DNA from: Deltaproteobacteria bacterium
GTDB taxonomy: Bacteria; Desulfobacterota; Desulfuromonadia; Desulfuromonadales; BM103
NCBI GenBank assembly: GCA_024636215.1
Contig: JAGXHL010000040.1
Location: forward strand, 1 to 8,791
Direction of reading: 5' to 3'
DNA: 8,791 bases
The translations under genes were made by a program, and so were the position numbers. The first letter of the stretch is position 1. The number at the start of each line of letters is the position of its first letter. This document shows positions 1 to 8,791 of this stretch, piece by piece. The notes beneath the pieces were generated by a model that made no database searches, was not told the DNA's origin, and saw only the letters and a program-made list of their open reading frames with translations.

Positions 1-809
1 ATGGTTTCAAAAATAACACTGCCGCCGATCAGACCGGGAACAGACAGGCCAAGGATGGTGATAACCGGCAGCAGGGCATTCCGCAGGGCGTGCTTGTAGA
101 TCACAGTCCTTTCCGATAAGCCTTTGGCACGTGCCGTGAGAATATAATCCTGGCGTATCACTTCGAGCATATTGGAGCGCATGTAACGCGAAAAGCCTGC
201 CAAACCACCGAAAGCTGAAACAAAGACCGGCATAATCAGGTGATGGACGATATCCCAGAACTGTCTTGCCGGACTCAGGTAATCGTAGCCGATCGATTTC
301 AGTCCGGCTACCGGGAAGATTCCCAGGCGCACACCAAAATAATCCATCATCAGCAGCGCCAGCCAGAAAGACGGCATGGCGAAACCGAGAAAAACAAAAA
401 TCGTCGTACCACGATCAAACGCACTGTTGCGACGTACCGCGGAAAGGATGCCGATCGGCACGGCAACAACCAGGATCACAACAATGGATAAGACGTTGAT
501 TAGAATGGTTATCGGCATGCGTTCGCTGATTTTTTCCAGAACCGGCCGGTTGTCCTGAGAAAAAGAATCGCCGAAATCAAGCGTAACGATTTGTTTCATC
601 CACAAGCCATATTGAACATACAACGGCTTGTCAAGGTTATAGCGCTCGCGCAAACGATCCCGCATGTCGACGCTCGATTTCGGATTGAGGTCGGTCTGCA
701 TATCAGTCGGCTCGCCGGGAGCCAGGTGGATGACAATAAAGCTGATCAGGGTAATACCGATCAACAGTGGAATCATCATGATCAGTCTTTTCGTGAGATA
801 AGCAAGCAT
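1..809 (-). CDS. ABC transporter permease, DppB/OppB type (3' end beyond window)
   Basis: Inner-membrane permease subunit of an Opp/Dpp-type (peptide/nickel family) ABC importer. The visible 269 residues start with [10 protein letters not shown] and a first membrane helix at about 9-29. A periplasmic segment with [15 protein letters not shown] (about 54-68) follows, typical of DppB-like proteins, then hydrophobic segments near 100-122, 134-157 and 188-206. The cytoplasmic EAA loop that contacts the ATPase is at about 216-248 ([15 protein letters not shown], then [10 protein letters not shown]). Family members are usually 300-340 residues, so roughly the last 40-70 are outside the window. The ATG at 809-807 is preceded by only a weak purine stretch (AAGAGAAAAC). 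The gene lies 140 nt downstream of the substrate-binding protein gene on the same strand, so the two very likely form one importer; the second permease and ATPases would be expected beyond position 1. The substrate is not determined by sequence. Family assignment is sure. Confidence 0.95.
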
Positions 810-845
810 GGTTTTCTCTTATTGAGGGCTTAGCCATCCCGTGTG

Positions 846-862
846 TTTTTGCGAGTGCATCA
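846..862 (-). repeat. 17-nt direct repeat, copy 2 (permease side)
   Basis: On the minus strand this reads TGATGCACTCGCAAAAA. It differs at one base from the copy at 928-944 (TGATACACTCGCAAAAA). The two copies lie 82 nt apart start to start in the 140-nt gap between the binding-protein and permease genes. The function is unknown; it may be a dispersed intergenic repeat or a binding site. Confidence 0.6.
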
Positions 863-892
863 TCTTATTGACTTCCGCAGTAAATAGACACC

Positions 893-935
893 AAAAAATC
901 GGAACGCAAAAGCCAGAGACGTCGGACTTTTTGCG
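893..935 (-). terminator. Imperfect hairpin with downstream T-run between binding-protein and permease genes
   Basis: On the minus-strand transcript CGCAAAAAGTCC (935-924) can pair with GGCTTTTGCG (914-905). This gives about ten pairs, including one G-U and one bulged A, with a loop of about nine or ten bases. A run of six T follows at 898-893, six bases past the stem. The stem is A/T-rich and the T-run is not adjacent, so this is a poor intrinsic terminator. It may act as a partial terminator or as an RNA 3'-end stabiliser that keeps binding-protein mRNA in excess over permease mRNA, a common pattern in ABC importer operons. That role is inferred. Confidence 0.35.
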
Positions 936-944
936 AGTGTATCA
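928..944 (-). repeat. 17-nt direct repeat, copy 1 (just after the binding-protein stop)
   Basis: The minus strand reads TGATACACTCGCAAAAA, starting five bases after the stop codon of the binding-protein gene. It matches 16 of 17 bases of the copy at 846-862. Its CGCAAAAA end is also the 5' arm of the hairpin at 905-935, so repeat and hairpin may belong to one element. Confidence 0.6.
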
Positions 945-949
945 ACGTT

Positions 950-2560
950 TCAGCGAGTATATTTCTGTTCGCTCTTCGGCACATACCATTCGATAAAGTT
1001 ATAGGTAATCCCGGCCGGTGCCGTCTCTATCCCACGAAAGCGTTTGGCCACGGCCGGCAGGGCTTCACCAACATAAAGAAACGTATAGGGCTGCTCCTCG
1101 GCAAGGATTTCCTGAAAACGATCATAGATCTGCTTGCGCTCTGCCTGGTCAAACGTTCGCCGGCCTTTTTCCAGCAGCTCGTCGACTTCCGGATTGCCGT
1201 ACTTGACGAAATTCAGTTCGCGCGGCGCCGTTTTGCTGGAGTGCCAGATATTAAACTGATCCGGTTCCGGACCACCGGTCCAGCCGAGGATGGTTGCATC
1301 GAAGTTTCCCGTAAAGATAAACTCTTTGAGGAAGGTCGCCCATTCGACAACCCGGATCTCAACGGCAATGCCAACTTCCTTGAGACGCCTTTGAATAATC
1401 TCAGCCGTCTTCGATCGCAGGTCGTTGCCCTGGTTGGTAACAATCGTAAAAGCCAGTTTCTCGCCGGCTTTATCCAGAACGCCATCGCCATTACTGTCAA
1501 TCCAGCCGGCCTCGGCAAGCAACGACCGCGACAGTTCAGGGTTGTATGGATAACGCTTCACCTTGGCATTGTAGACCCAGGTATCCGGCTTATAGGGTCC
1601 GGTTGCGGCCTGGCCCAGCCCAAGCAGAACACCATCGATGAGCTCCTGCTTGTTGATCGCGTGAGAGATGGCCTGACGGACGCGTTTATCCTGAAAGAGC
1701 GGTTTCGTCAGATTGTAACCGAGATAGGTGTAGCTGAACGACAGGTAGCGATACTTGTTGAAGTTGCGGGTAAAAGCCGGGGTGTCAGTCTGGGTCTGGT
1801 ACTGTATCGGAGTTAAACCCATGAAATCGAGGCCACCCGATTGCAACTCGAGAAATTGCGTTGAGCTGTCAGGAATCACCCGGTAGACGACACGGTGAAT
1901 ATAGGGTTGACCTTCAAAGTAGTTTGGATTGGCTAACAGCTCCACTTTTTCACCGGCATCCCATTTGACAAACATGTACGGCCCGGTGCCGATCGGGCTG
2001 CGTGAAAGAGGGCTTTTCGAGACATCCTGATCTTCGAGAAGATGCTTGGGATGCATCGCGGTCCCCCAACTTTCCAGAGCCGGAGCATAAGGTTTTTCAT
2101 AAGTAACACGGAAGGTGTAGGGATCGACGGCCTCCGCCCTGGCAACCTGCAGGAAATCCTCGGCATATGAGGTCGGCACATCGGGGTTGATGTACATCTG
2201 GTAGGTGAAAAGAACATCGGCACTGGTGAATGGGGCACCATCATGCCAGGTCACATCTTTGCGCAGATGGAAGGTAAAGGTCAGGTTATCCTCCGAGATC
2301 TCCCAGGTTTCGGCCAATTCGCCTTCGAGTTGTAAATTTTTGTCGTAGCGTATCAGACCGTTATAAACCAGACGGTTAATATCACTTGAGGCCGAGTCGG
2401 ATGACAGCACCGGCAACAGGTTGTTCGGTTCGCCGATCGACGCCTCGATGAAGGTGTCACCATGGACCGGCTTCGCCGCATCACCTTCAGCCGGGATCAC
2501 CGCCTGCTGCTTTTCGCAGCCGGCCAGTAGACACAACAGAACAAACAGGAGAAATCTCAC
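950..2560 (-). CDS. ABC transporter substrate-binding lipoprotein, SBP_bac_5 (DppA/OppA/NikA) family
   Basis: Extracytoplasmic solute-binding protein of a peptide/nickel-type ABC importer; it captures the ligand and delivers it to the permease encoded next. It has 536 residues, the usual size. A short lipoprotein signal ends in lipobox LAGC with lipidated Cys15, so the protein is membrane-anchored. The SBP_bac_5 signature is at about 97-121 (FHLRKDVTWHDGAPFTSADV), preceded by NRLVYNGLIRYDKNLQLEGELAETWE at about 62-87. Later family landmarks are the VRQAISHAINKQELIDGV segment, an AGW segment before an acidic DSNGDGVLD loop, and the closing NFIEWYVPK. The start is GTG at 2560-2558, supported by a strong AAGGAG six bases upstream. 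The acidic DSNGDGVLD loop resembles a calcium-binding loop and occurs in many relatives. The gene lies 88 nt after a LolB-like lipoprotein gene and 140 nt before the permease gene. The ligand cannot be told; oligopeptide is the default guess. Confidence 0.95.
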   Translation of the reverse strand: MRFLLFVLLCLLAGCEKQQAVIPAEGDAAKPVHGDTFIEASIGEPNNLLPVLSSDSASSDINRLVYNGLIRYDKNLQLEGELAETWEISEDNLTFTFHLRKDVTWHDGAPFTSADVLFTYQMYINPDVPTSYAEDFLQVARAEAVDPYTFRVTYEKPYAPALESWGTAMHPKHLLEDQDVSKSPLSRSPIGTGPYMFVKWDAGEKVELLANPNYFEGQPYIHRVVYRVIPDSSTQFLELQSGGLDFMGLTPIQYQTQTDTPAFTRNFNKYRYLSFSYTYLGYNLTKPLFQDKRVRQAISHAINKQELIDGVLLGLGQAATGPYKPDTWVYNAKVKRYPYNPELSRSLLAEAGWIDSNGDGVLDKAGEKLAFTIVTNQGNDLRSKTAEIIQRRLKEVGIAVEIRVVEWATFLKEFIFTGNFDATILGWTGGPEPDQFNIWHSSKTAPRELNFVKYGNPEVDELLEKGRRTFDQAERKQIYDRFQEILAEEQPYTFLYVGEALPAVAKRFRGIETAPAGITYNFIEWYVPKSEQKYTR

Positions 2561-2563
2561 AAG

Positions 2564-2613
2564 GGACTCCTTTGTGAAGCCGGACCATCATAACGCTCTG
2601 TTTTCAGGAGTCC
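2564..2613 (-). promoter_or_regulatory. Possible RBS-sequestering stem in the leader of the substrate-binding protein gene
   Basis: In the minus-strand mRNA GGACTCCT (2613-2606) is perfectly complementary to AGGAGTCC (2571-2564), with 34 bases between. The 3' arm covers AGGAG of the Shine-Dalgarno. If formed, the stem would hide the ribosome site in the 88-nt gap between the LolB-like gene and the binding-protein gene. The complementarity is seen; a regulatory role is inference, and the long loop makes the stem only moderately stable. Confidence 0.4.
2567..2572 (-). promoter_or_regulatory. Shine-Dalgarno of the substrate-binding protein gene
   Basis: AAGGAG on the minus strand, six bases before the GTG at 2560-2558. 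It decides this non-ATG start, which is also the one giving a proper lipoprotein signal. Five of its six bases lie in the 3' arm of an 8-bp inverted repeat (2564-2571 with 2606-2613). Confidence 0.85.
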
Positions 2614-2648
2614 AGGGACAGCTGCAGCGTCGGGACAGTCGCCTCACA

Positions 2649-3443
2649 CTATAATTCGTCTAATGAAATAACCGTTACACCCGCCGGGGGTGTGAGTTGA
2701 AAGATACCGGAACGCAATACGCCATTGGTTTCAAGGTCCGTAAATTCGAGACTGGCAGTGCTCTTCTGCTCAGGAATTTCAATCCTGAAGAAATGCGGGA
2801 AGCTGAGCCCTCCCTCTGCGAAATTTCCGTAAGCAATCTTCATGAGCAGGTTGTCGCGATCGAAATAACTCACCTCAACAAGCTGACGCAAAGGATTAAA
2901 GATCAATTCCTGACGATGCGGCGAGCCGTTGCGTAGCAGCAGCCAGCCGCCCTCCTGAAGTTCAAAAGCCTCTTCACTCCAGGCATTTATCATCGGCGGC
3001 TGGTAGAGCAGAACACGGACCAGATCATCCGGGCGCAAGGGGATACGTACAAATCGGCCGAGATTTTCCGGTGTCGCTGCTCCAGTGTAATAGAGGTTCT
3101 GAGAAGGCAGCAAGATCCCGAGCTTGTCACCGTCAGCTGCCAGCAACAGCAAGGGCGAGCCGAAAGGGCTCAAGGTTTCGGCGCGCAGTCGATTCGGCTT
3201 TTCGGCCAGGATGACCTGGGTGCCGTTCATTGTATTGTCGGGCGTGCGCACCTTAACCCTGGCCAGCCCTTGTACTGTAGAAATCCGGGCAGAGCTCGCA
3301 GACCACTCCTGCATGAGCCCGGCGGCAAAGCTTTGGCTTACCTGCTCGCCAACCTGCTTTGGACGAACCGGGGCGCAGGCAGCCAGCAGGGCCATGAGGA
3401 CGACACTTAACAACAGTGTAAAAAAAGAGGCATAATGTGACAC
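2649..3443 (-). CDS. LolB/DUF4292-like lipoprotein
   Basis: Predicted outer-membrane-type lipoprotein of 264 residues. The signal peptide (about 1-22) has a long hydrophobic core and ends in lipobox LAAC with Cys23; the residue after Cys is Ala, not the Asp that retains lipoproteins in the inner membrane of enterobacteria. After a helical linker, residues from about 55 (STVQGLARVKVRTPD) run as alternating beta strands: GTQVILAEKPNRLRAETLSPFG at about 74-95, then LLLAADGDKLGILLPSQNLYYTG. This resembles the half-barrel of LolB and DUF4292 proteins, which bind lipids or lipidated partners. The start is GTG at 3443-3441 with AAAGG eight bases upstream; it lies 11 nt after the TPR gene stop, so the two genes are almost certainly co-transcribed and probably translationally coupled. 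The pairing suggests a cell-envelope role, for example lipoprotein or polymer handling. The exact function is unknown; family placement is from fold-like sequence pattern only. Confidence 0.85.
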   Translation of the reverse strand: MSHYASFFTLLLSVVLMALLAACAPVRPKQVGEQVSQSFAAGLMQEWSASSARISTVQGLARVKVRTPDNTMNGTQVILAEKPNRLRAETLSPFGSPLLLLAADGDKLGILLPSQNLYYTGAATPENLGRFVRIPLRPDDLVRVLLYQPPMINAWSEEAFELQEGGWLLLRNGSPHRQELIFNPLRQLVEVSYFDRDNLLMKIAYGNFAEGGLSFPHFFRIEIPEQKSTASLEFTDLETNGVLRSGIFQLTPPAGVTVISLDEL

Positions 3444-3454
3444 AGGCCGAACCT

Positions 3455-5173
3455 TTACAGAGTATCTGCAAGCTTTTCAAGCTTGCTGCGAAGATCGAGA
3501 TTGTCAGGCTGAAGGTGGAGTGCCTTTTCAAAGGCGGCGCGCGCCTCATCCAGGTTATTCAGCGCAAGATGAATATCGCCAAGATGCTCAAGAATGACAG
3601 CATCTTCGGCAAGTTTGCGGCTGGCTTCCTCTGTGACCTTGAGAGCTTCAACCAAACGACCCAATCGATAATAGACCCAACCCAGAGTATCCAGAATATG
3701 CGGTGCGGGTTTTAACTTTATGGCACGTTCGGCGTAAATCAATGCTTCATCGAGGTCGCGATTGTCAACAGCCAGCGCATAGGCAAGAAAGTTCAGGGCT
3801 TCAGCATGTTCATCATCAACAGCAAGCAGATCCCTTGCTGCCTGCATGGCCTCTGCATGCTGTCCGCTACGCTCCAGAATCAGCGTTCTCTGATAAAGCA
3901 GATCGATATTATCCGGGTAAAGTTCAACACCACGCTCGACCGTAGCGAGCGCTTGCCCATACTGTCCATCGGCCATGTAGAGTGATCCCAGATAGTTGAA
4001 AACTTGCGGTCGCGGTTGCCCCTCGGCCATTCTCGATTCGAACAGCATGATCGCTTCGCTGATGCGCCCGGTTTGCAGATAGATGTAGCCGATATGGGAC
4101 AAGGCATCGTCATAAAGAGCGGACTCCTTGTCAATGCCAAGAAAAGCTTCAAGCGCCGGTTGCCACTCGGACTGGCTTTCGTAGGCCGTACCCAAGTAAT
4201 AGCGGGCCGGTTCGAGATCCGGTTTCAAATCGAGAATCGTATTGAAGGTTGAGATAGCGTCTGACCAGCGCTGCTGTTCCAGAAAGATCAGCCCCATCTT
4301 GCGACGCGCATCAAAATCTTCGGGCTTGAGCTCAACGATAATGTTGAGCTCTTCCAGGGCATCGCCATAGCGTTTCATACCGACATAGATACGCGCAAGG
4401 TGATGACGCAAAGTAAAATCGAGCGGACGCTGCTTAAGAACATCGGCAAAAACATCCAGCGCGTTCTGCCACTCTTTGAGCTCTTCATAGAGGAGACCAA
4501 GCTCCAGGTATGCCTGATCCATACCTGGATAACGACGAATCAGATCTCGATATTGCTCCACCGCCAGAAGATGCAAACCGGTCTCTCGATAGAGACGTGC
4601 CATCGCCAGGCGTCCGGACATGGAATCCGGAAAACGTTTCAACAATTCTTTCAGTTGTTCTGCAGCAAGATCAACGTCTCCGACACGCACAAGCGCTATG
4701 GCCAGATGCAGACGGACCTCTTCATTATCCGGATCGAGTTCCAGTGCGTGACGGAAATAGGGTATGGCCTTATCCGCTTGACGGTTGCTGAAATAGGCAT
4801 TGGCCAGGATCAAGTTGGCCTTCATGGAGTCCGGATTGCGCAACAGACTGTCTTCAACAGTTCGTATGGCGTTCTCCGGCTGATCAATAGCGATATAGAG
4901 TTCAGCGAGTTCAAAGCTTAAGTCTTCGTCGCCGGGATCATAATCAATGGCCTTGCGATAGGCTTCAAGAGCAGCGTCATGATCACCCTCGTTCAGCAAC
5001 ATGCGCGCACGCGCGTAATGAAAGTATGCGTTCGCTTGAGGTTCGTTCAGCCGAGAGACATAGGGCGCCTCATTCGCGGCGCCTTCCAGGATGTCACCCT
5101 GGACATCGGCAGTCACACAACCACTCAACAAGAGGGCCAGCAGAAGAGTAATTTGACAGCGGAGCAAAGGCAT
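3455..5173 (-). CDS. TPR-repeat lipoprotein (about 15 tetratricopeptide repeats)
   Basis: Envelope lipoprotein of 572 residues made almost wholly of TPR helices, a protein-protein interaction scaffold. The signal MPLLRCQITLLLALLLSGC has its lipid-bearing Cys at residue 19. From about residue 48 to the end the sequence is a run of roughly 15 units of about 34 residues, with the typical small/large residue pattern and the D/N-P turn (for example AIDYDPGDEDL, ALELDPDNEEV, ALHLQPDNLDL). The open frame continues upstream to a TTG at 5236, but that would put 21 polar residues before the signal peptide, and a promoter-like sequence lies inside the extra part, so the ATG at 5173-5171 is chosen. No good Shine-Dalgarno is visible before it. 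It is the first gene of the leftward unit, 11 nt before the LolB-like gene. A similar TPR plus small-lipoprotein pairing occurs in related bacteria (recollection). The partner and process are unknown. Confidence 0.92.
   Translation of the reverse strand: MPLLRCQITLLLALLLSGCVTADVQGDILEGAANEAPYVSRLNEPQANAYFHYARARMLLNEGDHDAALEAYRKAIDYDPGDEDLSFELAELYIAIDQPENAIRTVEDSLLRNPDSMKANLILANAYFSNRQADKAIPYFRHALELDPDNEEVRLHLAIALVRVGDVDLAAEQLKELLKRFPDSMSGRLAMARLYRETGLHLLAVEQYRDLIRRYPGMDQAYLELGLLYEELKEWQNALDVFADVLKQRPLDFTLRHHLARIYVGMKRYGDALEELNIIVELKPEDFDARRKMGLIFLEQQRWSDAISTFNTILDLKPDLEPARYYLGTAYESQSEWQPALEAFLGIDKESALYDDALSHIGYIYLQTGRISEAIMLFESRMAEGQPRPQVFNYLGSLYMADGQYGQALATVERGVELYPDNIDLLYQRTLILERSGQHAEAMQAARDLLAVDDEHAEALNFLAYALAVDNRDLDEALIYAERAIKLKPAPHILDTLGWVYYRLGRLVEALKVTEEASRKLAEDAVILEHLGDIHLALNNLDEARAAFEKALHLQPDNLDLRSKLEKLADTL
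3468..3486 (-). other. Perfect 8-bp hairpin at the 3' end of the TPR gene
   Basis: GCAAGCTT and AAGCTTGC are separated by three bases (GAA on the minus strand), ending 11 bases before the stop codon and about 25 bases before the GTG of the next gene. In RNA this is a tight stem-loop close to the ribosome-binding region of the LolB-like gene. It also encodes the repeated KLEKLA residues, so it may be a by-product of coding. Confidence 0.5.
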
Positions 5174-5194
5174 AGAAGGTCCGTTATGAGGGGA

Positions 5195-5223
5195 ATGATT
5201 CCAAATAAAGGTAGCACAGTCAA
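5195..5223 (-). promoter_or_regulatory. Candidate sigma70 promoter for the leftward TPR-lipoprotein-ABC unit
   Basis: On the minus strand TTGACT (5223-5218) is followed after exactly 17 bases by AATCAT (5200-5195), which matches 5/6 and 4/6 of consensus. The -10 box lies 21 bases before the ATG at 5173. A second TTGAC (TTGACC, 5236-5231) with TACCTT (5213-5208) at 17 bases is a weaker overlapping alternative. Either would place the start point inside the extended open frame, which supports the shorter TPR protein. Confidence 0.5.
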
Positions 5224-5261
5224 CCTGTATGGTCAATCAGACTGCCCCCTCCAGCACAAGC

Positions 5262-5289: not shown

Positions 5290-5908
5290 TTAAGAAAATT
5301 TTGCTGTGAGCGACTTGGCCAGTGATCGCCACACCAACGTATTCTGGACTGTTGTAATTCGCTTTTATGCAAACGCATTTCTGACGGTCGCATAACTGCC
5401 ATGGACCAACTTCATCCACAATTGCTGGAACCTTCTGCCTATCCGGAAGCGACTCAAGCCGTCGACTTCAGCCATGGCGACCTTCATACAGCGAACATCT
5501 GCATGACTGATCCGATCTGCATTTACGACTGCATCGAATTCAATCGTCGTTACCGGGTTGCCGACATTATTGCCGATCTGGCCTTTCTGCTCATGGATCT
5601 CGAATTCCGCGGCCGTCGGGATCTGGCAGAAGAACTGATGAGACAATACTGCTGCAGAGTTCATTATCAGTCAGCAAAGTGTTATTGTCGACGCATCTTT
5701 TGCAAAGGAAGATCAGCGCCAGAGATTCATCCGGCTTGCCGCGCAGGCTGGATGTCCCGTCTGGTTGCTGCACCTGGAATGCCCGGACAATGTGACATTG
5801 CAAAGGCTCGATCAACGCGTTGATGACGTTTCTGGTGGCAGAAGAGAGCTCTATTCCCGGCAGAAGGACGGCTTCAGCCCTATCCAGGCAAGAAATCATG
5901 TCGTTACT

Positions 5909-5932
5909 GTCGACAGCACCCGTGCTGTCGAC
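5909..5932. promoter_or_regulatory. Perfect 24-bp palindrome, candidate operator
   Basis: Left arm GTCGACAGCAC (5909-5919), two-base centre CC, right arm GTGCTGTCGAC (5922-5932), with no mismatch. By simple base statistics an 11-bp perfect arm pair with so short a centre is not expected in a window of this size. It directly abuts TATAAT and contains most of the -35 box and all of the spacer of the promoter at 5910-5938, a place where a dimeric repressor would block RNA polymerase. It lies inside the 3' end of the pseudogene, where coding constraint is relaxed. As RNA it would be a tight hairpin, but no T-run follows. Confidence 0.7.
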
Positions 5933-5938
5933 TATAAT
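5910..5938 (+). promoter_or_regulatory. Near-consensus sigma70 promoter for the membrane protein-symporter pair
   Basis: TCGACA (5910-5915, 5/6) and a perfect TATAAT (5933-5938) are spaced by 17 bases. Transcription would begin near 5944-5946, giving a leader of about 40 bases to the ATG at 5986, with AGGAG in it. This is the best promoter match I see in the window. It lies within pseudogene sequence and is interlocked with the palindrome. Confidence 0.65.
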
Positions 5939-5972
5939 GTGCAGTCACTTCTTTGCAGAGCATTGACCTCTC

Positions 5973-5977
5973 AGGAG
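5973..5977 (+). promoter_or_regulatory. Shine-Dalgarno of the small membrane protein gene
   Basis: AGGAG lies eight bases before the ATG at 5986. It fixes this start rather than an upstream TTG at 5953 in the same frame. Confidence 0.75.
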
Positions 5978-5985
5978 CAGTTCAC

Positions 5986-6255
5986 ATGAAATCGGCGCGT
6001 AAACTGCCATTAAAAGATGCCTGGGTCATCTGGTTTCTTCTCGGCGTGGTGATGATCAATTACCCGTTTCTGCATATTTTCAACAAAGAGGTGCTGATCT
6101 TCGGCATACCGCTGACGATCCTTTACTTCTACATCGGCTGGCCGGTTTCCATCTTCGTCATCTATCTCTTTACAGTTTATCTCGTCAGGCGCTCGCCGGA
6201 CCGTGATGCCCCCAAAAACCATCAGGAGAACGATTCGCACGGAGAAAGATCGTGA
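5986..6255 (+). CDS. Small two-helix membrane protein, DUF3311-like, symporter partner
   Basis: An 89-residue inner-membrane protein. Two hydrophobic segments are visible, about 12-30 (AWVIWFLLGVVMINYPFL) and about 45-67 (ILYFYIGWPVSIFVIYLF), joined by a short loop with FNKEVLIFGIPL. The pattern P-x-L-x-x-x-F-N then FGIPL then a W-containing second helix resembles DUF3311 proteins, which are often encoded directly upstream of sodium:solute symporters. The C-terminal 20 residues are highly charged and probably cytoplasmic. ATG at 5986 overlaps the TGA that closes the preceding pseudogene frame, and its own TGA overlaps the GTG of the symporter gene (GTGA), so the two proteins are likely made together. 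A role as accessory or small subunit of the symporter-receptor is inferred from this linkage; no enzymatic motif is seen. Confidence 0.88.
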   Translation: MKSARKLPLKDAWVIWFLLGVVMINYPFLHIFNKEVLIFGIPLTILYFYIGWPVSIFVIYLFTVYLVRRSPDRDAPKNHQENDSHGERS

Positions 6256-8791
6256 TTTCCGTCACCATTGTCGCCCTGACATCACTGCTGTATTTCGGTA
6301 TTCTTTTTGCTGTCGCTTATTACGCAGATCGACAACACGCTCGGGGGCAAAGCCTGGTTGACAACCCTTCTGTTTACTCATTGTCTCTGGCTGTGTATTG
6401 CACATCCTGGACTTTTTACGGCAGTGTCGGGCGTGCGGCAACCTCCGGCATCGACTTTCTGGCCATTTACCTGGGTCCGACACTGATCGCATTTTCATGG
6501 TGGTTTTTGCTCCGCAAAATGGTGCGCATCAGCAAAGAGCAGAATATCACCAGCATCGCCGACTTCATTTCCAGCCGCTATGGCAAATCGCCACTGCTCG
6601 GTGCCGTTGTCACAATATTCGCGGTTATCGGCATCATGCCTTACATTGCTTTGCAGCTGAAAGCCGTTTCCCGCACCTTTGACCTGCTGGTCTACCCTCT
6701 CGCCACGGTTGATATAAGGATGCATGTCCTGCCAAAACTTGAGTTACATTTTGATTCGGCACTCGTGGTTGCTTTGATACTGGGAATTTTCGGCATTATA
6801 TTCGGAGCAAGGCATCTGGACGCTTCGGAGCGACACGAAGGGCTGGTTGCCGCAATCGCCCTTGAGTCAGTGGTCAAAATTATCGCTTTTGTCGCTGCCG
6901 GTTTATTTGTCACTTATGGACTGTTTGATGGTTTTGCCGATATCTTTCGCGACTTTCTGCTCCGCTTTCCTGAACGTAGCCATCTGCTGATGCTCGGTAC
7001 AGGTGAAAACAGCTACGCCCACTGGCTGAGCATGACCGTCATCTCAATGATGGCCATCATGTTTCTGCCACGTCAGTTTCACATTATGGTTATCGAGAAC
7101 TGCCGCGAAGACCATATCCGCAGCGCCATGTGGCGCTTTCCTGCGTACATGGTCATTATCAACCTGTTTGTCATCCCGATCGCTCTTGGCGGACTGCTGC
7201 TTGCCAACGGCGACACATACAATGCCGACTTTTTCGTCATTACCCTGCCGCTCCAATATGGCCACCCCTGGTTAGCCCTGCTGGTCTTTCTCGGAGGATT
7301 CTCAGCATCGGCAGGCATGGTGATGGTTTCATCGGTGGCATTGTCCACTATGATTCTCAACCACCTGATCGTACCGATCATCCTCAAGTTTCATACCGGC
7401 GCCAGTGAACTGTCCGGTTTGCTTCTCAACATCAAACGGCTTTGCATCCTGGCGGTTATCTTTCTTGGTTATGTTTATTACCGTTTACTCGGTGAATCAG
7501 CAGCCCTGGTCAATATCGGCCTGATTTCCTTTGTCGCTGCCACCCAGTTTGCCCCGGCCGTTATCGGCGGTCTCTACTGGCGCCAGGCAACTCGCCGCGG
7601 GGCCGCCGTCGGCTTGATCCTTGGTTTTATCGTATGGTTCTACACGCTCCTCATACCGTCCTTTGTGCAATCCGGCTGGCTAAGCACAGCGCTTATCGAA
7701 CAGGGCCTTTGGGGACTGGCCATTCTGAATCCAACCGAACTGTTCGGGCTCAGCGGCTTTGATTTGTGGACGCATTCACTTTTCTGGACCATGTTTGTCA
7801 ACCTCGGCAGTTACCTGACAATCTCTCTACTCACGGCACCGAGTACTGAAGAGCTGGAGCAAGTCCATAAATTTGTCGACGTTTTCAATCCCGCGCCCAG
7901 AAAGAAAGAGAGAACCCGGATCACCAGGGCACCGACAATCATCGAATTCGTCGATCTGATGGCAAAATTCATCGGTACAAAACAGGCCCATGCAGCGATC
8001 AGCGAATACATGAATAATCGTGAAATTGATGAAAAAGGCGGCCTGTCAGAACAAGATCTCCTTAAACTGAAACGCTTTACCGAACTGACACTGGCCGGTT
8101 CGGTCGGTGCCGCACCAGCCCGCATCATCGTCGACAAATACCTCTCGGCGCGCGGCAGTCACATGGAAGATGTATTTGACCTGTTCGGATCGGTCAATAT
8201 CAGCCGCACGGCAAGTCGTGAGCAGCTGAGCGTCCTGTACGATGCGGCGCGGTCCATCGCGAGCGGCAATGATCTACAGTCGATACTCGATGAAATACTT
8301 GTCATTTTTACCGATCAATTCAAATTTGACCTTTGCGTCATCCGGATCCTTGACGAGGATCGGCAGACCCTGACTGCTCGCAGTCAGCGTGGCATGTCGT
8401 CTGAACACTTTGGGGAATCGGAGCGCGATCTGACGAGCGATACCTTTATCGGAGAAACCTTTTTGACCAACAGTGTCAGCGTGGTCAACGACTCGGATGT
8501 TATCAGCAAGATAAAAACAGCACAGATTATTCACCGCGAGAAGATTCTCTCCTTTGCCCACGCTCCAATCTCGATTGAAGGACAACCGATTGGTGTCCTC
8601 TCAGCATTTTCACGCTCAGCAAAAGGCATCTTTACCAAGGAATTCCTCGAGTTGTTTACCAGCCTTGCCGGACTGGTCGGCATTGCATGGCGCAATGCTG
8701 AACAAACCGAACATCTCATCAGAGCCCGTGAACAGCAGCGTGAGCTCGCTATTGCCAAAGGCATCCAGCTCGGCTTGCTGCCGACCAGCAC
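6252..8791 (+). CDS. Sodium:solute symporter-STAC-GAF-phosphatase fusion receptor (3' end beyond window)
   Basis: Membrane transporter-sensor; 846 residues are visible and the C-terminus is cut. Residues about 1-530 form an SSS-family domain with many hydrophobic helices, close in style to the transporter part of CbrA/CrbS (SLAVYCTSWTFYGSVG near 45-60; FLPRQFHIMVIENCREDHIR; WRFPAYMVIINLFVIPIALGG). Residues about 566-634 resemble the STAC linker that joins SSS domains to kinases, with AGSVGAAPARIIVDKYL around 615-631. A GAF-type ligand-binding domain spans about 659-817. A coiled link leads to ELAIAKGIQLGLLP (831-844), which is how SpoIIE/PP2C-type phosphatase domains (RsbU-like) begin after GAF or PAS domains. 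The output would then be serine/threonine dephosphorylation, typically of an anti-sigma-factor antagonist. No histidine kinase H-box is seen before the cut. The start is GTG at 6252 with GGAG seven bases upstream. The solute is unknown; small organic acids or amino acids are plausible from the family. The phosphatase call rests on few residues. Confidence 0.9.
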   Translation, partial: MISVTIVALTSLLYFGILFAVAYYADRQHARGQSLVDNPSVYSLSLAVYCTSWTFYGSVGRAATSGIDFLAIYLGPTLIAFSWWFLLRKMVRISKEQNITSIADFISSRYGKSPLLGAVVTIFAVIGIMPYIALQLKAVSRTFDLLVYPLATVDIRMHVLPKLELHFDSALVVALILGIFGIIFGARHLDASERHEGLVAAIALESVVKIIAFVAAGLFVTYGLFDGFADIFRDFLLRFPERSHLLMLGTGENSYAHWLSMTVISMMAIMFLPRQFHIMVIENCREDHIRSAMWRFPAYMVIINLFVIPIALGGLLLANGDTYNADFFVITLPLQYGHPWLALLVFLGGFSASAGMVMVSSVALSTMILNHLIVPIILKFHTGASELSGLLLNIKRLCILAVIFLGYVYYRLLGESAALVNIGLISFVAATQFAPAVIGGLYWRQATRRGAAVGLILGFIVWFYTLLIPSFVQSGWLSTALIEQGLWGLAILNPTELFGLSGFDLWTHSLFWTMFVNLGSYLTISLLTAPSTEELEQVHKFVDVFNPAPRKKERTRITRAPTIIEFVDLMAKFIGTKQAHAAISEYMNNREIDEKGGLSEQDLLKLKRFTELTLAGSVGAAPARIIVDKYLSARGSHMEDVFDLFGSVNISRTASREQLSVLYDAARSIASGNDLQSILDEILVIFTDQFKFDLCVIRILDEDRQTLTARSQRGMSSEHFGESERDLTSDTFIGETFLTNSVSVVNDSDVISKIKTAQIIHREKILSFAHAPISIEGQPIGVLSAFSRSAKGIFTKEFLELFTSLAGLVGIAWRNAEQTEHLIRAREQQRELAIAKGIQLGLLPTS

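Follow-up and report, generated by a model that had tools for sequence, protein, structure and literature searches.

Introduction

What is the role, if any, of a perfect palindrome that runs straight into a promoter-like hexamer near the end of a decaying gene? This question is raised by positions 5909-5938 of the window, i.e., of the whole stretch of 8,791 nucleotides that was analyzed. Read directly, positions 5909-5932 form GTCGACAGCAC-CC-GTGCTGTCGAC, an 11-2-11 palindrome with zero mismatches and no strand of its own. It is abutted by TATAAT (5933-5938), which follows TCGACA (5910-5915) at a distance of 17 nt (spacer 5916-5932), all on the plus strand. The palindrome, the boxes and their 17-base spacing had been reported in a preliminary description and were found again letter for letter; the same description took the site for the operator of a dimeric repressor. 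Promoters located within genes have been described before, chiefly on the basis of RNA data. Based on a comparison with related loci, we propose that positions 5910-5938 very probably represent a conserved sigma70-type promoter, which would transcribe an operon encoding a small membrane protein and a symporter-GAF-phosphatase protein and would have outlasted the kinase gene upstream, with the palindrome as a by-product.

Results

Architecture of the locus

The TCGACA/TATAAT pair is the top promoter-like match in the window, with 11 of 12 positions matched (6/6 in the -10 and 5/6 in the -35 element). Because the same scan returned nine matches against 7.1 expected in shuffled sequence, the promoter score alone proves little. 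The palindrome is the sole perfect inverted repeat of the window with arms of 11 and a spacer of 0-6, and no such repeat occurred in any of 40 order-1 Markov simulations of the same length. Related real DNA (270,843 bases) gave six such matches at five loci, two of these loci being orthologous and one palindrome being counted twice. No RNA family reached the gathering threshold in the window. A plasmid origin was discarded as a candidate, with positions 5401-6600 lacking a near match.

The preliminary description had placed the promoter in the tail of a decayed gene, and this is borne out by the remnants found. Positions 5401-5655 (plus strand, ends approximate) carry the remnant of an APH-type domain (Pfam APH, E 6.9e-6). 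Behind it, in a different frame, comes what is left of the AAA/P-loop kinase domain of the same gene, namely its C-terminal portion (5660-5989, plus strand); both remnants were aligned to the intact gene of locus L083. The latter lies in the closest genome examined (G019), in which the symporter is 91% identical and the kinase gene is found intact directly upstream; it counts 410 residues within the locus and 518 as an open frame in the genome, with an AAA_33 domain in the scanned part. Compared to this nearest intact copy, the window copy misses approximately 0.4 kb including the P-loop, and its frame is changed. The host gene is open in relatives, some frames being cut by the locus edge. The remnant has as homologues short AAA-type proteins that end in a similar way, e.g., VDTTGAVDYNVQS; two carry the name 'predicted kinase'. 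The names of the nearest symporter proteins suggest that the window derives from a Desulfuromonadales bacterium. In the remnant reading frame, which ends at 5989, the palindrome corresponds to eight whole codons (VDSTRAVD) and TATAAT to the next two (Tyr-Asn), while the -35 element is situated inside the codons V-D-S. The stop codon TGA (5987-5989) overlaps the next start as ATGA, and the identical 4-nt overlap is present in 20 of 33 relatives with a kinase gene, starts being placed by homology.

As originally described, the promoter faces membrane-protein and symporter genes; the DUF3311-like identity proposed there was not confirmed, no Pfam or NCBIfam model for it being matched. The first gene behind the promoter encodes a small membrane protein (5986-6255, plus strand) for which Pfam gives only BrkB, below the cut-off, and NCBIfam no model at all. 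It recurs in relatives before the symporter, and its ATG is preceded at 8 nt by a putative ribosome-binding site AGGAG (5973-5977, plus strand), read directly and identical in L083. The second gene (6252-8791, plus strand) starts with a GTG overlapping the preceding stop, encodes a Na+/solute symporter-GAF protein (Pfam SSF and GAF) and runs off the window; in its full-length relatives, a phosphatase domain of the SpoIIE type forms the end of the protein (SpoIIE was found in P0003). Divergently, the minus strand (3-5236) encodes a transporter permease (by reading), a family 5 solute-binding protein, a TPR protein (Pfam) and a putative lipoprotein. The TPR gene adjoins the promoter region, close upstream, in many relatives that have lost the kinase gene.

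Conservation of the promoter among relatives

Conservation was scored in genomes belonging to the same order as G001, at 89 loci for which upstream DNA was available, comprising 30 initial loci, L081 and 60 loci from the symporter places listed (L086 and L144 were dropped, having no upstream DNA). A promoter was counted at ≥11/12 matches to TCGACA-N17-TATAAT or TCGACA-N17-TATACT. By this measure, 44 of the 89 relatives (window excluded) have it in front of the same symporter operon. Kinase gene and promoter occur together at 26 loci, the promoter without the gene at 18, the gene without the promoter at seven and neither at 38, the last two classes standing against our reading. The promoter is thus present in 26/33 relatives with and in 18/56 without the kinase gene, counts that are neither independent events nor a census because the relatives share ancestry, some genomes give two or three loci (L101 and L102 are near-identical) and not all listed places were taken. 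The near-consensus promoter of the preliminary description is supported in that the same letters and spacing are kept in about half of the relatives. The letters of the spacer vary among relatives and are weakly kept in the consensus of loci without a kinase gene, whereas its length is kept in promoter-bearing loci.

Without scoring of the second -35 base, ≥10/11 was reached by 45 of the 90 upstream regions of relatives and window, compared to none in the reversed control, three on the opposite strand and one in shuffled sequence. TCGACA is present in 42 of these 45 regions, and the unscored second base is invariably C (45 of 45). On the Geobacter side, two of six loci carry a -10-like hexamer at the same place (GATAAT in L007, AATAAT in L009); the promoter site may therefore be older or partly shared. 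Another pair, TTGAC[A/T]-N17-GATAAC, is seen at loci without the kinase gene (L136, L139, L140, L143, L146 and L149; also L003 and L017), at a similar distance to the small membrane protein gene.

Codon constraint in the kinase gene

A promoter embedded in codons may be mimicked by protein coding alone: the kinase would need Val-Asp-Thr/Ser and Asp-Tyr-Asn-Val, and there would be no promoter. These residues indeed recur among homologues, yet we consider this explanation very improbable in view of the synonymous codon choice. In a codon alignment of 33 relatives and 176 columns, based on each gene's own codon usage and on a null that treats genes as independent, synonymous constraint is strongest at the two -10 codons (AAT for Asn with z 6.5, TAT for Tyr with z 6.3; ranks 1 and 2 of 176). 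The Val/Ile codon of the -35 element (NTC) ranks fourth of 176 with z 5.1, and its Asp codon has z 3.4. Tyr is encoded by TAT in 25 of 26 cases against 15.1 expected, and the T-ending form is used in 29 of 29 Asn/Thr codons against 17.0 expected. Across the 33 relatives, the Asn column contains 26 Asn, three Thr (ACT), one Ser (AGT), two Gln and one His. At the Thr and Ser loci the residue has changed and a -10-like box is kept (TATACT or TATAGT); the Gln and His loci belong to the seven gene-bearing loci without promoter. Tyr-Asn is found at that position in none of the six Geobacter-side orthologues, which equally argues against a requirement of the protein. Finally, the boxes persist at 18 loci where the sequence examined has no intact kinase gene, and such loci contradict a purely coding explanation unless all those losses are recent.

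The third rank is taken by alignment column 181, in the last codons of the kinase near the stop/start overlap; constraint there is expected if the start region of the next gene is also fixed. Taken together, ranks 1, 2 and 4 of 176 and the retention at 18 of the 56 loci where the DNA examined shows no intact host gene indicate that the boxes are under selection as DNA.

Loss of the kinase gene and retention of the promoter

In the symporter tree, the window groups with L083 (support 100/100), this pair with L084 and L085 (98/94), and L087 comes next with weaker support (82/82). The kinase gene is kept in L083, L091, L093 and L094 and absent in L084/L085, in L087, in L088-L090 with L092, and in L095. 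If the gene was not regained, this distribution reads as several separate losses on the branches of the window's clade. The promoter is retained in the gene-less loci L084/L085, L087 and L095; it is not retained in this form in L088-L090 with L092, in L101/L102 and in L111. The downstream genes persist where the upstream kinase gene is lost.

None of the 18 promoter-only loci has an intact kinase gene in the DNA examined, and two keep a weak scrap. A search for the gene elsewhere in ten gene-loss genomes, at least one of which looks incomplete (G017, 1.6 Mb), gave no match in four and only a relative of 31-36% at another place in six. In L084, L085, L087, L095, L113 and L154, the boxes are 12/12 identical to those of L083, whereas the 60 nt to their left match L083 at merely 14-25 of 60 positions in an ungapped comparison. 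Kinase scraps (E ≤ 0.01) are left in five of the 56 gene-less loci (L113, L132, L135, L168 and L169) and all of them overlap the promoter position; the matches in L113 and L132 are weak (E 0.010 and 0.007). At the scrap, the promoter is degraded in L135, and its -35 element is changed to TCAATA in L168/L169. From these comparisons, the promoter seems to freeze some host-gene codons in many relatives and frequently to survive the loss of that gene.

Origin of the palindrome

The reading as an operator supposes that a dimeric repressor binds 5909-5932 across the -35 element and spacer and thereby blocks the promoter. The arms are perfect and lie over the -35 element, and their symmetry is indeed unusual: under a codon null for VDSTRAVD with the codon usage of the window, the probability of a perfect 11/11 is 2.9e-4. 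However, the same null expects 5.8 of 11 pairs (5.4 for the residues of L083), and since GTCGAC, which encodes Val-Asp and occurs twice, is self-complementary, part of the symmetry comes free. The palindrome thus appears unusual, yet partly a free consequence of the repeated Val-Asp codons.

Arm pairing was scored in the 49 relatives with a promoter site of ≥10/12. Symmetry upstream of orthologous symporter genes, the absence of which the preliminary description had named as evidence against its operator, is not kept: the average is 5.4 of 11 pairs where the kinase gene is present (28 relatives) and 4.7 of 11 where it is absent (21 relatives). L083 alone approaches the window with 10/11 pairs; the other 48 scored relatives remain at 1-7/11, the level predicted by the codons. 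The Val and Asp codons of the right arm show no synonymous constraint (z -0.9 and -1.1). The search for further copies that had been suggested, allowing ≤3 mismatches to the 24-mer, retrieved from 15 of the nearest genomes (the window's own genome being outside this set) only the orthologous site of the closest genome. Seven scanned ORFs of the window (the permease ORF lay outside the scan) contain no regulator family save a BTAD match, which sits on the TPR protein and is taken for its TPR repeats. With arms that are not kept, an unconstrained right arm and no further copies in these 15 genomes, the operator proposed earlier is not borne out, and we judge it improbable in spite of the perfect arms and the 10/11 pairs of L083. 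A lineage-specific operator confined to the window species and L083 may be considered as a variant.

A perfect stem in a transcript arriving from upstream could alternatively act as a hairpin that terminates or attenuates transcription reading through from the kinase gene. This is the least probable of the explanations we weighed, barely credible given that the stem is followed by no T-run, is absent from the terminator-like sites of the plus strand here, is not conserved and sits upstream of the expected transcription start. An intrinsic terminator was rejected for this stem without a T-run on the plus strand. We take the palindrome for a by-product, presumably composed of GTCGAC occurring twice and of chance synonymous choices in the window species and its closest relative, and regard it as incidental to the promoter.

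The constant C and class I fumarase promoters

In 20 genomes, the exact string TCGACA-N17-TATAMT gave 30 matches compared to six with the reversed pattern. By reading of the downstream frames, 11 precede the symporter, 12 a class I fumarase (Pfam Fumerase matches the L173 product) and seven others; apart from the symporter and fumarase sites, the exact string is near background in these genomes. In the same genomes, TTGACA gave 10 matches (control 10) and T[A/G]GACA six (control 12), and in 14 genomes outside the order TCGACA-N17-TATAMT gave a single match (control 3). Among the fumarase loci L230-L259, 25 of 30 reach ≥10/11, with C as second -35 base in 25/25; the remaining five have no TCGACA promoter by this score. 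In 23 of the 30 loci, TGTATACA is found by reading between the boxes, and it is absent from the symporter sites; in the fumarase spacer it is likely an operator. An 18-nt spacer gave six matches (control 12), five of which (in G034, G040, G041, G042 and G051) lie just upstream of fumarase starts.

A wider TCGACA regulon in the sampled genomes was considered and rejected. A 16-nt spacing gave five matches (control 4) with no gene family apparent, and a relaxed -10 element in 12 genomes gave 96 matches against 72 in the control, with no third cross-lineage family recognized by eye. Fumarase and symporter operon lie approximately 12-19 kb apart, start to start, on the same contig, and are thus neighbours, in G001, G047, G049, G050, G094, G095, G096, G109 and G110 and farther apart in G031, G126, G055 and G136 (no systematic count).

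These data bear on the possibility of a dedicated promoter class, in which the C of the -35 element would be read by an alternative sigma factor or an activator and the symporter operon would be co-regulated with class I fumarase. The C, invariant in symporter and fumarase sites though unscored, and the enrichment of the TCGACA string over its controls inside the order speak in favor. On the other side, the relaxed search disclosed no third family, TGTATACA marks most fumarase spacers and no symporter site, a sixth of the fumarase loci do without the promoter, and the same picture would arise from an ordinary sigma70 promoter that is kept weaker than consensus at two loci. We therefore hold co-regulation by a dedicated recognizer to be possible, yet doubtful. 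The same tentative standing applies to its boldest form, a Desulfuromonadales-wide TCGACA-N17-TATA(A/C)T class with an obligatory C and a sigma factor or activator of its own, which would dictate C-terminal residues of the kinase and outlast it on several branches. HgtR and RpoS are candidate regulators of Geobacter TCA genes and may serve as leads. The passages of PMC545781 examined contain neither TCGACA nor TGTATAC.

Discussion

In this study, we propose that the promoter lay, in the ancestor, inside the last codons of the upstream APH/AAA-kinase gene, the stop of which often overlaps the next start. It would have fixed the synonymous codons, and probably the residues (Tyr-Asn), open to the kinase gene. 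In all likelihood, an RNA polymerase holoenzyme containing a sigma70-family factor binds 5910-5938; it would start near 5943-5946, giving a predicted leader of approximately 42 nt that carries AGGAG. Transcription would then cover the membrane protein gene (5986) and the symporter-GAF-phosphatase gene (6252); from the sequence comparison, we infer that the promoter fires and drives these genes. In relatives with a whole kinase gene, the promoter would be operon-internal and uncouple the downstream genes from the kinase. Since these genes would no longer depend on a promoter in front of the kinase, the latter could be lost with the downstream genes still expressed. The kinase gene is decaying in the lineage of the window and gone in several others, with the promoter remaining. 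As to the second -35 base, its constant C may hold promoter strength down, or may be read by another sigma factor or a bound activator.

Several known systems offer comparison. According to a study on magnetosome operons (PMC8547445), intragenic promoters are conserved between related species and can express downstream genes without the primary promoter. The likeness lies in promoters inside operon genes that are conserved among relatives; the difference is that the magnetosome host genes are intact, whereas the kinase gene is in decay or has disappeared, the boxes constrain its codons and activity is predicted from sequence. For Epsilonproteobacteria, a comparison (PMC3847290) describes internal sigma70 promoters whose presence tends to follow the downstream gene, as it does here; few positions are conserved there (6 of 41 shared orthologues), whereas the letters and spacing of our promoter hold at nearly half of the sampled loci of one order, also without the host gene. 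With the canonical sigma70 promoter TTGACA-N17-TATAAT, the site shares the spacing, the -10 element and five of six -35 bases; it differs in the second base, C at all 45 scored sites, and TTGACA itself is unenriched at this spacing in the 20 genomes. The class I fumarase promoters have the same TCGACA and TATA(A/C)T boxes, mostly with 17-nt spacing, but are located outside a kinase gene, mostly contain TGTATACA in the spacer and often carry an A after TCGACA.

In the open literature, which included few subscription papers, no title or abstract was found on a TCGACA promoter in Geobacter or Desulfuromonas or on a promoter that survives once its host gene is lost. Conserved intragenic promoters as such are already known; what sets this case apart is the double evolutionary signature together with the survival after gene loss. 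Evolution gives evidence of this promoter twice: nowhere in the examined part of the host gene is synonymous constraint tighter than at its boxes, and these often remain after the gene is lost. The locus thereby offers a natural experiment on whether the presence of an internal promoter allows the gene in front of it to be lost. The same signature, codon-frozen boxes combined with retention after gene loss, could be sought elsewhere. In addition, the unvarying non-consensus C, common to the fumarase promoters, represents a clear lead to a putative recognizer in this iron- and sulfur-reducing order.
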